In this document: one piece after another, positions 48,659 through 54,913 of the stretch
Numbering within the stretch: the first letter of the stretch is position 1
Layout of the letters: every line of letters begins with the position of its first letter
NCBI GenBank assembly: GCA_018223185.1
Contig: JAAEYW010000027.1
Coordinates: forward strand, 1-64,000
Direction of reading: 5' to 3'
DNA: 64,000 nt
Origin: Oceanospirillales bacterium
GTDB taxonomy: Bacteria; Pseudomonadota; Gammaproteobacteria; Pseudomonadales; Balneatricaceae
Notes under the pieces: model-generated
Databases searched by the model: none
What the model saw: only the letters and a program-made list of their open reading frames with translations
Told to the model about the DNA's origin: nothing
Position numbers and translations under genes: made by a program

Positions 48659-49564
48659 ATGAAAAATGCCAATCTTCTTCAATCCCGAATTGATGCGCTG
48701 CTCAATGTCCTGTCTGAAGATGTGCTGATCCTGAGCCAGCAAGGCACCATCATTTTTTCCTCACATAACGAATCACCAATCCCGTGGGGAGGGGCTGATG
48801 AACTGGCAGGTAAAAATCTGTATGACCTATTTCCCGAAGATATCGCTTCGATGTTGCAGGGGATGGTTGATAAGTCTCTGAGCCTGAATCAGCTTATGGT
48901 CAACGAGGTTTTGTTTGATCCGACAGAGATCGTTCACCTGCAACAGAAGGGTATGGTTGAATCCTGCTGGGTTGAGGTGCGTATGGCACCCTCTGCCGGT
49001 GATGAACCCAGTGTGGTTTGCCGGATAGAAGATATCAGTCGGCGCAAAATGGTCCAGCGCGACACCTCTCACATACAAAGAGATCTGCTCACCGGTATGT
49101 ACAATCGCAGGGCGCTTATGCCTGTGCTTGCTCAATCCATCGCTCAGGCACTTCGCTATGACTGGATCTGTAGTCTGATGCTGATTAATGTTGATAGCCT
49201 GAGACTGATTAATGAACAGCGGGGCTGGGATGTGGGAGATCAGATTCTTAAGCGTCTGGCAGAGTCACTCAACAGTCTCAAACGCACTGCAGATTTTCTT
49301 GCCCGTGTTGGCGAAGATGGTTTTGCCATACTGCTGCCTGAAACCAATGCTGAACAGGGTATCCTGGCGGCTAAGCGGGTACGCAGTATGGTGTCTGATC
49401 TGTCGGCTCCGCATTCGGGTACCGATATTCATTTTACTGTCAGTATTGGTGTCGCCACGCTATCAGGGGAGGAGGACAGCGCTGAATCAATGTATAGCCG
49501 GGCAGAGGCTTGCCTGCAGCTTTCTAAACAGCAGGGCGGAAACCGTATAAGCGGCAGTGAGTGA
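48659..49564 (+). CDS. PAS-GGDEF protein with degenerate active site and intact I-site
   Basis: Cytosolic protein of about 301 residues with a PAS domain (about 5-130, DVLILSQQGTIIFSSHNE) and a GGDEF-fold domain (about 145-300). The catalytic motif is GEDGF (LARVGEDGFAILLPE) instead of GGDEF, so cyclase activity is unlikely. The RxxD inhibitory site is kept as RTAD exactly five residues upstream. Such proteins can act as c-di-GMP receptors. The ATG at 48659 has GGAG eight bases upstream. Confidence 0.88.
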   Translation: MKNANLLQSRIDALLNVLSEDVLILSQQGTIIFSSHNESPIPWGGADELAGKNLYDLFPEDIASMLQGMVDKSLSLNQLMVNEVLFDPTEIVHLQQKGMVESCWVEVRMAPSAGDEPSVVCRIEDISRRKMVQRDTSHIQRDLLTGMYNRRALMPVLAQSIAQALRYDWICSLMLINVDSLRLINEQRGWDVGDQILKRLAESLNSLKRTADFLARVGEDGFAILLPETNAEQGILAAKRVRSMVSDLSAPHSGTDIHFTVSIGVATLSGEEDSAESMYSRAEACLQLSKQQGGNRISGSE

Positions 49565-49887: not shown

Positions 49888-50949
49888 TCAGATCTGCGGA
49901 TGTTGTTTCAGGGTTTCAATCAGGGTCTGCATCTCTGCAGATGTGCCGATGGTGATACGCAGAAAGTTCTCGATGCCGGGCTTGCTGAAGTGTCTCACCA
50001 ACAGGTTATTGCTGCGCAGGTACTGCATCAGCTCAGCGCCACTGATCGATTTATGGCTGGTGAAGACAAAGTTAGTTTTAGACGGGATGACCCTGAATCC
50101 CATCTGCTCCAGCTGAGCTGTCGTCCATTCCCGGCAATCGATGATCTTCTGGTTGGTTTCATTAAAGTATTCAACATCTTCGAGGGCGGCTACTGCTCCC
50201 ACAATCGCCAGACTATCCAATGGATAGGAGTTAAAAGAGTTTTTCACTCGCTCCAGCCCGGCAATCAGGTCCTCATGTCCCAGTGCAAAACCGATGCGCA
50301 GGCCTGCCAGGCTGCGTGATTTAGAGAAGGTCTGAATCACCAGTACATTGTCATAGTTGTGGATCAGCTCGACGGCTGAGCTGCCGCCAAAATCGATATA
50401 GGCTTCATCAACGATAACCAGCGATTCACTGTTTTTTTGCAGTAGTGTTTCGATCGCGTCAAGTGCTGTCTGACGCCCGGTAGGCGCATTTGGGTTGGCG
50501 AAGATGATACCGCCATTAGGCTGATCGTAATCGGCGAAATTAATTTCAAAATCTTCGGTCAGTGGAATCTGGCGATATTTGATATCGTACAGATTGCAGT
50601 AGACATCGTAGAAGCTGTAAGTCGTTTCCGGTAACAGCAGCGGCTTGTCCTGACGGAAGAACGCCATAAATGCCAGCGCCAGAACTTCATCCGAGCCGTT
50701 GCCGACAAAGATATTGCTGTATTGCAGCTGAAAATGATTCGCCAGAGACTGTTTCAGCGCCGTGGCATCGGGGTCACAGTAGAGGCGTAAACGGTCTTTG
50801 GGGTAGTTGTTAATCGCCTCAGCAACCCTGGGAGAGGGGGGATAAGGGTTTTCATTGGTATTCAGTTTAATCAGGTTATCAACCTTTGGCTGCTCACCCG
50901 GAACATAAGGTGTCAGCTGGCTGATGGCCGGGCTCCAGTATTTACTCAT
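49888..50949 (-). CDS. hisC: histidinol-phosphate aminotransferase
   Basis: Class I/II PLP aminotransferase converting imidazole acetol phosphate to histidinol phosphate. 353 residues. Landmarks are LTPYVPGEQPKVDNLIKLNT, NENPYPPSPRV, FVGNGSDEVLALAFMAF, IIFANPNAPTGRQT, DEAYIDFGG and PLP lysine in IQTFSKSRSLAGLRIGFALG. The gene stands alone rather than in a his operon, common for one of several hisC copies. The last minus-strand feature upstream is the tandem sRNA-like pair. Confidence 0.95.
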   Translation of the reverse strand: MSKYWSPAISQLTPYVPGEQPKVDNLIKLNTNENPYPPSPRVAEAINNYPKDRLRLYCDPDATALKQSLANHFQLQYSNIFVGNGSDEVLALAFMAFFRQDKPLLLPETTYSFYDVYCNLYDIKYRQIPLTEDFEINFADYDQPNGGIIFANPNAPTGRQTALDAIETLLQKNSESLVIVDEAYIDFGGSSAVELIHNYDNVLVIQTFSKSRSLAGLRIGFALGHEDLIAGLERVKNSFNSYPLDSLAIVGAVAALEDVEYFNETNQKIIDCREWTTAQLEQMGFRVIPSKTNFVFTSHKSISGAELMQYLRSNNLLVRHFSKPGIENFLRITIGTSAEMQTLIETLKQHPQI

Positions 50950-51099
50950 GATGGATCGCGTGTCGCTATAATAAGGAGTTTGCAGAAAGTGCGCCGTAGG
51001 GATGGAACAGTTCTTCCCGGGCGGCAGCTGTTGGGCTTAGCATATCAAATAGCGACTCATCCTCGCTATACCTATCGGTGTGCGATAAAAGAATGACAT

Positions 51100-51170
51100 A
51101 AAAAAACAGCCCGGAGGGAAGGGGGCCACCGGGCTGTTCGGGTCTTACTTATTACGTTGATGTAAATATA
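51100..51170 (-). ncRNA. candidate small RNA, unit A of a tandem pair
   Basis: On the minus strand the unit ends in an intrinsic terminator, stem CAGCCCGG/CCGGGCTG (51107-51114 with 51129-51136) followed by seven T residues. The 14-nt loop holds CCCCCTTCCCT and with the stem base gives CCTTCCCTCC. The 5' part (TACATCAACGTA, AAGACC) is shared with unit B 160 bases upstream. The stem differs from unit B by a compensatory A-T to T-A swap. Not yet shown to be transcribed. A plain terminator is the alternative. Confidence 0.55.
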
Positions 51171-51261
51171 TAGATAGCAAAAATCTGAGAAAGTTCAGCT
51201 AAAACTATTTTTTAATATGATCGTAGTGAGTGGGTGCCGTGAGAGTGAAATGCTGGCCTAT

Positions 51262-51330
51262 AAAAAACTGCCCGGAGGGAAGGGGATCCCCCGGGCAGTT
51301 TCGGTCTTGCATAGTACGTTGATGTATAAA
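51262..51330 (-). ncRNA. candidate small RNA, unit B of a tandem pair
   Basis: Paralogue of unit A. Stem CTGCCCGG/CCGGGCAG (51268-51275 with 51291-51298), then a T6 run on the minus strand. The loop contains CCCCTTCCCT. The upstream shared block ACATCAACGTA is at about 51315-51325. Sequences further 5' (CTGAAC, and the AT-rich TTTATACA box) resemble a promoter and are partly shared with unit A (TAGCTGAAC in both). Confidence 0.55.
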
Positions 51331-51505
51331 TTTAGAGACGTCTGTTCAGCTAAAGTTCATAAAAAAATTAATTTTTTTTGTGTTTTTTTAAGAATAATTT
51401 AACCTTTTGTTTTTAAAGTAATTATTTTATGAAATTAAGCCTGAAGCTACCCGGGGATGGTGTTTGTCGGGGGTGGGATACGCCCTCTGATCTAATATTT
51501 CCGGA

Positions 51506-51940
51506 TTAAGCGACAGAGTGATCGTAACGGCCGACAAACATGGCAGTAACGTTATCCATAGTTGATATATGATTAACCAGCCAGTGGCACAGCGTTGTTT
51601 TGAGGAAGTCATCAAGCAGATCAGTATTCTGATTTTTCTGCCACTGCAACAGTATCTGAGCGAGTTCCTCCAGTACCCGTTCATGCTCACCTTTATGACA
51701 CTCATAAGCGGGAAAATTCACCCGTACCATCTCGGCTTCTTCGTGAGCAAAATGATTCTTACTGTGTGCATAGATCTCTTTTAGCAGGGGTTCTATCTGC
51801 TGCTGTGACTCTCTATCTCCTTTATGCGTCTGCTGGATAAGCTGATCCAGTTGGTTTATCTGTTCGGCCGCAGCTGCGTGGTCGTGGTTCATAAAGTCGA
51901 GCCCTACCACCGGAATCTGTTCACGTTTTAACAGTGTCAT
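51506..51940 (-). CDS. bacteriohemerythrin
   Basis: Four-helix di-iron oxygen-binding protein of about 144 residues. Ligands are in VGLDFMNHDHAAAAEQINQL (His), HSKNHFAHEEAEM (HxxxH...E), the YECHKGEHERVL segment, and CHWLVNHISTMD (HxxxxD). Likely an oxygen sensor, store or carrier. The ATG at 51940 with GAGGAG upstream is better than the in-frame ATG at 51955. Confidence 0.93.
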   Translation of the reverse strand: MTLLKREQIPVVGLDFMNHDHAAAAEQINQLDQLIQQTHKGDRESQQQIEPLLKEIYAHSKNHFAHEEAEMVRVNFPAYECHKGEHERVLEELAQILLQWQKNQNTDLLDDFLKTTLCHWLVNHISTMDNVTAMFVGRYDHSVA

Positions 51941-51955
51941 CTGATTTCTCCTCAA

Positions 51956-52557
51956 TAATGGTTGGTTCCGATATTACGCTAAGCGGATTATTGCTCCTTG
52001 TCTGATATCAAGAATCCCATGACTGGAAAGATTGAAATTTATTTTCAATTTTATGATTACAGAAGGTTAGCAAGCATTTAACCGGCTTGCGGAACAGGAG
52101 CGTAATTCTCTGAATGCTGAATAAAACGGTAAGAGAGGCGAGCGTGATCGCTACGGGGGTTACACGTTGTCGTTTTCTGAAGTCTGACAGCAACGGTCTG
52201 AGTGTGGGACTTGATTTTGCCGCAACGGCCCGACTTGCAACAGACGCTGCCGCGGCAGATACTTGAAACAGGATCTGCCTGACTGCAGCAGAATCTGTTT
52301 TGCACCATGCCACAGTCCTTATTCAGCTTAGCCAGATATCAGGGCGACTACCGACTGAGCCCGTCCGGACGAGCGTTGTGGTGACTTCCTGCATGCGCAG
52401 GGATTGATTGCGATATGCGATATGGTTGCAGGGTAAGCGCACAGAATCAGACGCTCAGGTTCCGGACAGAACAATGCTGTTGCTGGCTGACCCTTGTGTG
52501 CAATTTGAAATAAAGCTGAAACCAGAGAGTTAAGGCAAACAATGGAAATCTGTCTGA
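51956..52557. other. 602 bp gap with only doubtful small frames
   Basis: Between hemerythrin and hypA. A plus-strand frame of 50 codons starts near 52117 and a Cys-rich minus-strand frame of 76 codons lies at 52078-52308. Neither resembles a known family, and they overlap each other. The segment 52320-52540 might be a decayed gene. I make no call. Confidence 0.4.
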
Positions 52558-54105: not shown

Positions 54106-54411
54106 TTACTTAGCTAATTTAGATACTTCAGCCATAGCTTCTTCACTTGCTGATTTAGCCAGTTCAGTGAAGGCTTCGCCCTGTGCTTTCAGCAGTTCGA
54201 ACAGAGTAGTGTTGGCTTCAACGTTGAATTTAACAACGTCTTCAGGCGTTTTCAGATCTTTCGCTTTTTCAGCTTCAGTCTTGAAGAACGCAGCCAGGTC
54301 TTCACCGGCTTTTTTCTGCAGTTCAACAGACTTAGTGATAGTCGCAGCCTGCATCTCCATCAGAGATTTTACAGATTCGAAAGACTTGGTGAAATCGATT
54401 GAGTTGGTCAT
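54106..54411 (-). CDS. phasin family protein, copy 1
   Basis: Polyhydroxyalkanoate granule-surface protein of 101 residues. Amphipathic helices with FTKSFESVKSLMEMQAATIT, VELQKKAGEDLAAFFKTEAE and LLKAQGEAFTELAKSASEEA match the phasin family. The ATG at 54411 aligns with copy 2; the longer in-frame start would include promoter-proximal operator sequence. It has its own promoter, two dyad operators and terminator. It is a diverged duplicate of the gene at 54605-54913. Confidence 0.93.
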   Translation of the reverse strand: MTNSIDFTKSFESVKSLMEMQAATITKSVELQKKAGEDLAAFFKTEAEKAKDLKTPEDVVKFNVEANTTLFELLKAQGEAFTELAKSASEEAMAEVSKLAK

Positions 54412-54431
54412 GGTAGTTCTCCAGTAATTTA

Positions 54432-54447
54432 TGTTGCAGTGCACAAT
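54432..54447. promoter_or_regulatory. downstream operator of phasin gene 1
   Basis: TTGCAGTGCACAA, an imperfect dyad just after the -10 box, around the predicted transcription start. Same TGCACAA half-site as the other three phasin operators. Confidence 0.6.
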
Positions 54448-54604: not shown

Positions 54605-54913
54605 TTAGCTAGCCAGTTTCTTGATTTCTGCCATAGTCTCTTCGCCAGACGCTTTAGCCAGCTCGGTGAAGGCTTCGCCCTGTGCTTTCAGCAGTTCGTA
54701 AAGAGCTTTGTTGGATTCTACATTGAACTTAACAAACTCTTCAGGAGTCTTCAGTTCTTTCGCTTTCTCAGCTTCAGCTTTGAAGAAAGCAGCCAGGTCT
54801 TCAGCAGACTTCTTCTGTAGTTCAACTGTTTTAGTGATTGTTGAGGTTTGCAGGCCCATCAGTGTCTGAGCAGATTCGAAAGGCTTTTTGAAATCAAAAG
54901 TAGTGTTGATCAT
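54605..54913 (-). CDS. phasin family protein, copy 2
   Basis: Phasin of 102 residues, clearly paralogous to copy 1: FKKPFESAQTLMGLQTSTIT, VELQKKSAEDLAAFFKAEAE, KELKTPEEFVKFNVESNKAL and LLKAQGEAFTELAKASGEET. It would coat PHA granules. Both copies are transcribed separately from similar promoters, so they may be expressed to different levels or have different partners. No PHA synthase or PhaR gene is in this window. Confidence 0.94.
   Translation of the reverse strand: MINTTFDFKKPFESAQTLMGLQTSTITKTVELQKKSAEDLAAFFKAEAEKAKELKTPEEFVKFNVESNKALYELLKAQGEAFTELAKASGEETMAEIKKLAS

Follow-up and report, generated by a model that had tools for sequence, protein, structure and literature searches.

Tandem Units Between a Hemerythrin-Domain Gene and hisC

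Two short sibling units lie in tandem on the minus strand of the DNA analysed here (a stretch of 64,000 nucleotides, called the window), in the interval between a hemerythrin-domain gene and a hisC-like aminotransferase gene (Table 1). The name hisC is the one that we presume from the protein family, and the open reading frame of the hemerythrin-domain gene is listed from a TTG at 51955, with an ATG at 51940. Both 64-nt units are enclosed in a 77-nt direct repeat with 73% identity, and their starts are spaced by 162 nt. The first-pass annotation of this DNA had proposed two tandem minus-strand sibling small RNAs (sRNAs) with a shared 5′ block and an AAGACC segment, and the repeat agrees with that description. 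Each unit opens with ACATCAACGTA, which is common to both together with AAGACC, continues with about 24 mostly unpaired nucleotides and closes with a strong hairpin and a T run.

Table 1. Positions of the units, their predicted elements and the neighboring genes in the window
Feature	Position	Strand	Detail
hisC-like aminotransferase gene, downstream of the units	49888..50949	minus	Pfam Aminotran_1_2
Unit 2, predicted 64-nt sRNA	51163-51100	minus	ACATCAAC to end of T7 run
Unit 2 terminator hairpin	51107..51136	minus	CCCCTTC at 51124-51118
Predicted sigma-E type promoter, unit 2	51171..51197	minus	TGAACTTT 51197-51190, N15, TCTA 51174-51171
Unit 1, predicted 64-nt sRNA	51325-51262	minus	ACATCAAC to end of T6 run
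Unit 1 terminator hairpin	51268..51298	minus	CCCCTTC at 51285-51279
5′ end ACATCAAC of unit 1	51318..51325	minus	predicted single-stranded
Predicted sigma-E type promoter, unit 1	51333..51359	minus	TGAACTTT 51359-51352, N15, TCTA 51336-51333
Hemerythrin-domain gene, upstream of the units	51506..51940	minus	Pfam Hemerythrin

An Rfam scan of the window returned no family at the gathering cut-off, in keeping with the earlier remark that no described family with this sequence was known. Among the six weak matches (up to E 5), the best is the greA leader (26.8 bits, cut-off 60), and MicC is present (18.6 bits, cut-off 90). MicA and RybB, which we take to be covered by Rfam models, are absent among these six. 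An ATG frame from position 14 stays open throughout 6 of 14 units, is stopped at the second codon in two and is absent in the other six. Because this frame varies among the units, they are unlikely to code for a peptide.

Between unit 2 and hisC, a block at 51010-51075 on the minus strand (TATAGCGAGGATGAGTCGCTATTTGATATGCTAAG) carries an interrupted inverted repeat and is recognisable in several Amphritea loci; it is perhaps the hisC promoter or operator. Elsewhere in the window, two adjacent and similar short proteins are encoded at 54106-54444 and 54605-54913 (minus strand), likely by tandem duplication, and we presume from their appearance that they are phasins.

Terminator Hairpins and Their Loops

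The 8-bp terminator stems and T6-7 tails described earlier are present in both units. In unit 1, the stem CTGCCCGG/CCGGGCAG (51298-51291 with 51275-51268) is followed by T6, and in unit 2, CAGCCCGG/CCGGGCTG (51136-51129 with 51114-51107) is followed by T7. Folding gives each unit a single hairpin with a single loop motif; the z-scores, for two cuts each, are -5.7 and -5.2 in unit 1 and -3.7 and -5.2 in unit 2. When 18 units were aligned, 95.6% of the hairpin cells were paired, and the covariation score was reached by none of 500 shuffled and none of 6 slid versions. The stem swap that had been taken as a sign of selection on RNA structure holds in this wider set: the pair is U-A in 17 of the 18 units and A-U in unit 2 of the window alone, and two further stem pairs are changed on both sides, giving three such pairs in total.

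The loop itself had to be redrawn. The first-pass annotation gave CCTTCCCTCC as its core; the consensus fold places CCUCC in the stem and leaves ANCCCCUUC as the loop, which contains CCCCUUC. In single folds the loop is UCCCCU in unit 1, where CCCCU is exposed and the last UC is tied up, and CCCCCUUC in unit 2.

A Promoter Motif of the Sigma-E Type

Upstream of both units the same layout is found in register, TGAACTT-N16-TCTA-N7-ACATCAAC. Its core, TGAACTTT-N15-TCTA, has two matches in the window against 0.01 expected. Among the 18 aligned units, TGAACTTT and TCTA are invariant and fixed in spacing, and TGAACTTT-N15-TCT-N8-ACATCAAC matches exactly in each of the 20 units that the RNA model described below detected. 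Three divergent units have one mismatch to the promoter/5′ pattern; since they were found through this pattern, these three of the 23 units do not test the presence of the promoter. The upstream box TAGCTGAAC previously suggested as a shared promoter is a different element and does not fit this role: its start lies 27 nt (unit 1) or 38 nt (unit 2) upstream of ACATC, a difference in register of 11 nt. The link to sigma-E was missed by the first-pass annotation. A simple sigma-70 scan of 50000-52500 returned no promoter (mean of 3.5 in shuffles). For comparison, the rybB and micA promoters of Salmonella have GGAACTTTT as -35 and GTCAAA as -10 elements (PMC1804206, in excerpt, as are all sources cited here by PMC number).

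A like element stands upstream of rpoE. In all 15 genomes with rpoE over the family cut-off, GAACTT (13 genomes) or GAACTA (2 genomes), followed by N16 and TC(T/A)T, lies at a distance of 136-150 nt before the rpoE start; the pattern is a loose one of our own choosing, and that start was picked by script. In the source genome, rpoE, a gene with RseA/RseB domains and rseC follow in a row, and hfq is present. The exact form GAACTT-N16-TCTNA occurs there at 6 sites versus 13 in a reversed-pattern control, so there is no enrichment over the whole genome; unit 2, which has TCTAT, does not fit this form and is missing from the six. Intergenic DNA holds three of these sites, which stand before unit 1, rpoE and dsbB. 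The last one (L098:1501-1527, GAACTT-N16-TCTGA) ends 37 nt before the dsbB gene, and dsbB may be another envelope gene targeted by sigma-E.

Conservation Within Amphritea and Spread Outside the Genus

The genus of the source genome was taken as Amphritea. Matches to the units were found in 11 of 57 genomes searched, the source genome included, and all 11 belong to this genus. When named genomes were scanned with a pattern, 13 stretches came up: 10 belong to Amphritea records, and none of the other three has the C-rich hairpin. The search of relatives with a covariance model, advised at the outset, did yield further copies. The model of the RNA part was built from the 18 aligned units, which had been picked by the 5′-end motif, and detected 20 units, distributed over 11 of the 17 genus genomes; two of these units, the long second ones of G015 and G011, were outside the model alignment. 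The window's own units, both of which were in the model, score 88.2 bits (unit 1, 51261-51325) and 84.5 bits (unit 2, 51100-51163). The promoter/5′-end pattern added three genomes (G001, G003 and G012). In total, 23 units occur in 14 of the 17 genomes, with two copies in nine and one copy in five, and no unit was found in G002, G004 and G013 (completeness 78, 93 and 75%). A record of Amphritea pacifica (L072), outside the 17 genomes and all counts, has two units, both with CCCCTTC.

The units have a fixed neighbor on their downstream side. In all 13 relatives with units, hisC is downstream and on the same strand as the units, as in the window; hemerythrin is beside the units in 6 of the 13 (loci of about 1.5 kb on each side). 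Identity was counted for seven of the nine two-copy genomes, with G015 and G011 (two units each) left out. Mean pairwise identity is 84% and 77% for the promoters, and 87% and 84% for the RNAs. The spacer between the units is 51% identical versus 47% for a shuffled spacer, and the flanks reach 54% (130 bases upstream) and 58% (100 bases downstream). Since promoter and RNA identity is far above that of the spacer, this comparison of sequences indicates that the object of selection is the whole unit rather than a hemerythrin terminator. In a tree, the unit 1 copies of seven genomes group together with support of 94/98, slightly short of what the tool requires for a sure fork; the unit 2 copies form no resolved group. 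The grouping of unit 1 copies suggests that the duplication predates the split of those seven genomes.

Conservation of the RNA is highest at the 5′ end: ACATCAAC does not vary among the 18 aligned units (for whose selection this very motif was used) and is retained in all 23. In the second units of G015 and G011 (L009 and L010), about 20 nt of extra sequence sits between the 5′ end and the hairpin, giving 84 nt up to where the matched stem and T's end.

Outside the genus, the RNA model was run under stricter filters, which lose weak matches. Among 116 family genomes it matched in 12, with nothing convincing in the 99 outside the genus, and among 390 genomes drawn from the order it gave one match, the source genome. 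The sole match outside the genus, in G111, is a bare terminator that has neither promoter nor 5′ end and was discarded. Four genomes of other genera match the promoter/5′ pattern at two mismatches (5 places), versus two genomes in a reversed control, and none of the five places has a C-rich terminator hairpin after the pattern; these were likewise set aside.

A Conserved Porin as the Predicted Target

Outer-membrane protein mRNAs are lowered by sigma-E-dependent sRNAs of other bacteria (PMC1804206; PMC11005410), and because of such repression elsewhere, porins were examined first. The read-out covered 30 of the 64 porin matches of the genus, and some more later. One conserved porin is found in all 14 sRNA-bearing genomes, with the leader GTTAAATATT(G/A)AAGGGGAAA; TT(G/A)AAGGGGAAA precedes it in 14 of 14. 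Just before its start codon stands GAAGGGG, the complement of the loop CCCCUUC. The earlier idea that a pyrimidine loop can pair with a ribosome-binding site therefore survives in the form CCCCUUC/GAAGGGG, with the loop core corrected as above.

The fit was compared with that to other genes of the source genome, using 301 gene starts picked by a simple script. The loop of unit 1 pairs better with the porin site than with any of the 301 sampled starts, a count of zero that bears a multiple-test cost, as porins were looked at first and 6 of the genome's 7 porin matches were tested. No such fit to the loop was seen for the other five porins tested there. For the unit 2 loop, 9 of the 301 starts equal or beat the porin pairing, and over all 23 units, 0-20 of 301 own-genome genes fit as well as the porin site. 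Shuffled loops of the same composition were as good in 1-13 of 500 cases for 22 of the 23 units and in 42 of 500 for the remaining one. In the predicted leader structure, the porin site is 91-98% unpaired. At the genome level, GAAGGGG-N2-12-ATG occurs at 77 places versus 47 in the control, mostly inside longer frames or before short ones; at four of these loci a frame of at least 50 codons starts from the ATG and no frame of at least 100 codons runs through the site, and the porin is one of the four.

The porin leader is nearly invariant over the 14 genomes (L124:1438-1480, ACTACTAGTA(C/T)GTTAAATATT(G/A)AAGGGGAAA), more than a Shine-Dalgarno sequence needs, and it may hold other regulatory sites.

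In three genomes (G001, G003 and G012) the promoter, ACATCAACG and GCAAGACC are retained and the hairpin is different. It has a stem of 17 or 18 pairs and a C-rich loop, CUUCCCCU, which is complementary to AGGGGAA at the same porin site; these divergent units have no clear U-tract after the hairpin, and their 3′ end is uncertain. The porin site of this clade reads AAAGGGGAAA, so to speak facing the loop UUCCCCU. The loop/site pairs are thus CCCCUUC/GAAGGGG in one clade and UUCCCCU/AGGGGAA in the other. The first clade's loop gives -10.1 kcal/mol on the divergent clade's porin versus -13.1 kcal/mol on its own; the divergent clade's loop fits the porins of both clades equally, at -11.9 kcal/mol. 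With different hairpins and porin-matching loops, the two clades make a natural test of co-change between an sRNA and its target.

From the units, their promoter motif, structure, conservation and complementarity, all of them read in sequence, we infer how the locus may work. It probably encodes sibling sRNAs of about 64 nt that are sigma-E-dependent and act in trans, each from its own promoter to its own intrinsic terminator, and that repress a porin through the loop. Under envelope stress, sigma-E (RpoE) would transcribe both RNAs. In the cell, the C-rich terminator loop CCCCUUC would pair with GAAGGGG before the start codon of the conserved general porin, probably with the help of Hfq, and this pairing would block ribosome binding. 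Lowered porin synthesis would close the usual sigma-E feedback loop. The 5′ end ACAUCAAC, single-stranded by prediction, is likely a second seed, directed at other targets. If true, the non-coding arm of the envelope stress response would reach into Amphritea, a marine genus, through RNAs that have no match among Rfam families, and these would be another case of sigma-E sRNAs of different sequences that converge on the same kind of target.

Other Readings of the Locus

The terminator loop need not be the working part. The 5′ end ACAUCAAC could instead be the working seed of a sigma-E sibling pair with other targets, the fit of loop and porin being a by-product of a C-rich loop that meets a G-rich Shine-Dalgarno sequence. 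The known sigma-E sRNAs MicA and RybB act by 5′ seeds, and ACATCAAC is retained in every unit even where the hairpin has been replaced. Against this account, which we think unlikely though deserving of attention, stand the shuffled loops, which so seldom equal the real one, and the outcome of the search for 5′-end targets. In the source genome, the one 10-nt pattern complementary to the 5′ end, ACGTTGATGT, occurs at 13 places (two of them the units themselves) versus 8 in the control, with no convincing start-codon site among the 13 and no clear 5′-end target. Toward the porin leader the 5′ end pairs in an ordinary manner, with 68 and 115 of 301 genes as good. Two particular matches were rejected: a 9-nt match of unit 1 with the leader (AACGUACUA/UAGUACGUU) is possible in only 5 of 23 units, and only 4 of 14 genomes (G005, G001, G003 and G012) have a perfect CAUCAAC/GUUGAUG match at the porin start. 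A fuller version of the loop-based account would have the terminator loop as main seed at the porin Shine-Dalgarno sequence, its motif kept or re-made when the hairpin was replaced, the 5′ end serving separate targets, and the pair being a genus-specific sigma-E pair; this combination we put forward tentatively, as possible rather than probable.

Other doubts concern what drives the units and whether they are separate transcripts. Another extracytoplasmic sigma factor, or an activator at a direct repeat, might take the place of RpoE, as one further, weaker sigma-factor match exists in the source genome and several unit promoters carry CTGAAC twice, 11 nt apart; the repeat is missing in some units (e.g., G014 unit 1 and G006 unit 1), in which TGAACTT and TCTA are retained as in all others, and together with the rpoE element this makes such a driver rather improbable. 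The constant position upstream of hisC on its strand, in the window and in all relatives with units, would suit a leader or attenuator in which tandem terminators control read-through into the histidine gene. This has little probability in our judgement: a promoter-like element precedes each unit at fixed spacing, genomes carry one or two copies, no ATG frame is conserved among the units, and the block described above separates unit 2 from hisC. As for plain tandem terminators of the hemerythrin gene, which the units do follow on the same strand in the window, the first-pass annotation had named conservation limited to the hairpin as the finding that would speak for them. What is conserved is the promoter and the 5′ end along with the hairpin, and in three genomes without it, and hemerythrin was seen beside the units, within about 1.5 kb on each side, in fewer than half of the relatives; we give this explanation almost no credence. 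The sigma-E-dependent, loop-acting sRNA pair is the reading retained in the comparison below.

Comparison With Known sRNAs

In a literature search, no publication on an sRNA in Amphritea was found, nor anything combining sigmaE, porin, sRNA and Oceanospirillales, nor anything on an RpoE-dependent sRNA that uses a C-rich terminator hairpin loop on a porin mRNA, and the papers listed by a broader search make no mention of Amphritea. MicA and RybB of enterobacteria pair through their 5′ end. As is proposed for the Amphritea units, both are short RNAs encoded between genes (about 70 and 80 nt), are driven by sigma-E promoters and reduce the mRNAs of outer-membrane proteins (PMC1804206). The Amphritea units differ in having no Rfam match at the cut-off, in being tandem siblings beside hisC, and in that the terminator loop provides their best target match. 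FoxI and FoxJ of Fusobacterium are two sigma-E-controlled sRNAs with a common porin target and negative feedback (PMC11005410). FoxJ is about 156 nt long and from another organism (PMC11005410), and it is set apart here by description.

The first-pass annotation had likened the units to tandem CU-rich families. With NmsRA and NmsRB of Neisseria, the likeness extends no further than the layout and the predicted pairing with ribosome-binding sites. These two sRNAs lie in tandem, are nearly the same in structure (70% identity) and contain UC-rich regions that are complements of Shine-Dalgarno sequences; they have three stem-loops, two anti-Shine-Dalgarno segments and citric-acid-cycle enzymes as targets (PMC5362039), whereas the Amphritea units have one hairpin, one loop motif, a sigma-E type promoter and a predicted porin target. 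The alpha-r14 or cuckoo RNAs of alphaproteobacteria share pyrimidine-rich hairpin loops able to pair with ribosome-binding sites, and have several hairpins with the same CCUCCUCCC loop (PMC10746234, PMC3927594). Membership in such families does not hold, as the Amphritea units have one hairpin each and lack CCUCCUCCC; the sole CCTCCTCCC match in the window is at 49467-49475. Because the motif is absent from them, the units are, by sequence, not cuckoo RNAs.

OxyS of E. coli is, to our knowledge, not under sigma-E. Its contact with fhlA resembles the proposed one in that stem-loops of sRNA and target kiss and the contact at the leader hides the ribosome-binding site; OxyS has two kissing sites (PMC2946933), and one is supported for the Amphritea units. 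By analogy, the Amphritea units are like MicA and RybB in anatomy and like OxyS on fhlA in the loop, but by sequence they belong to no Rfam family at the cut-off.
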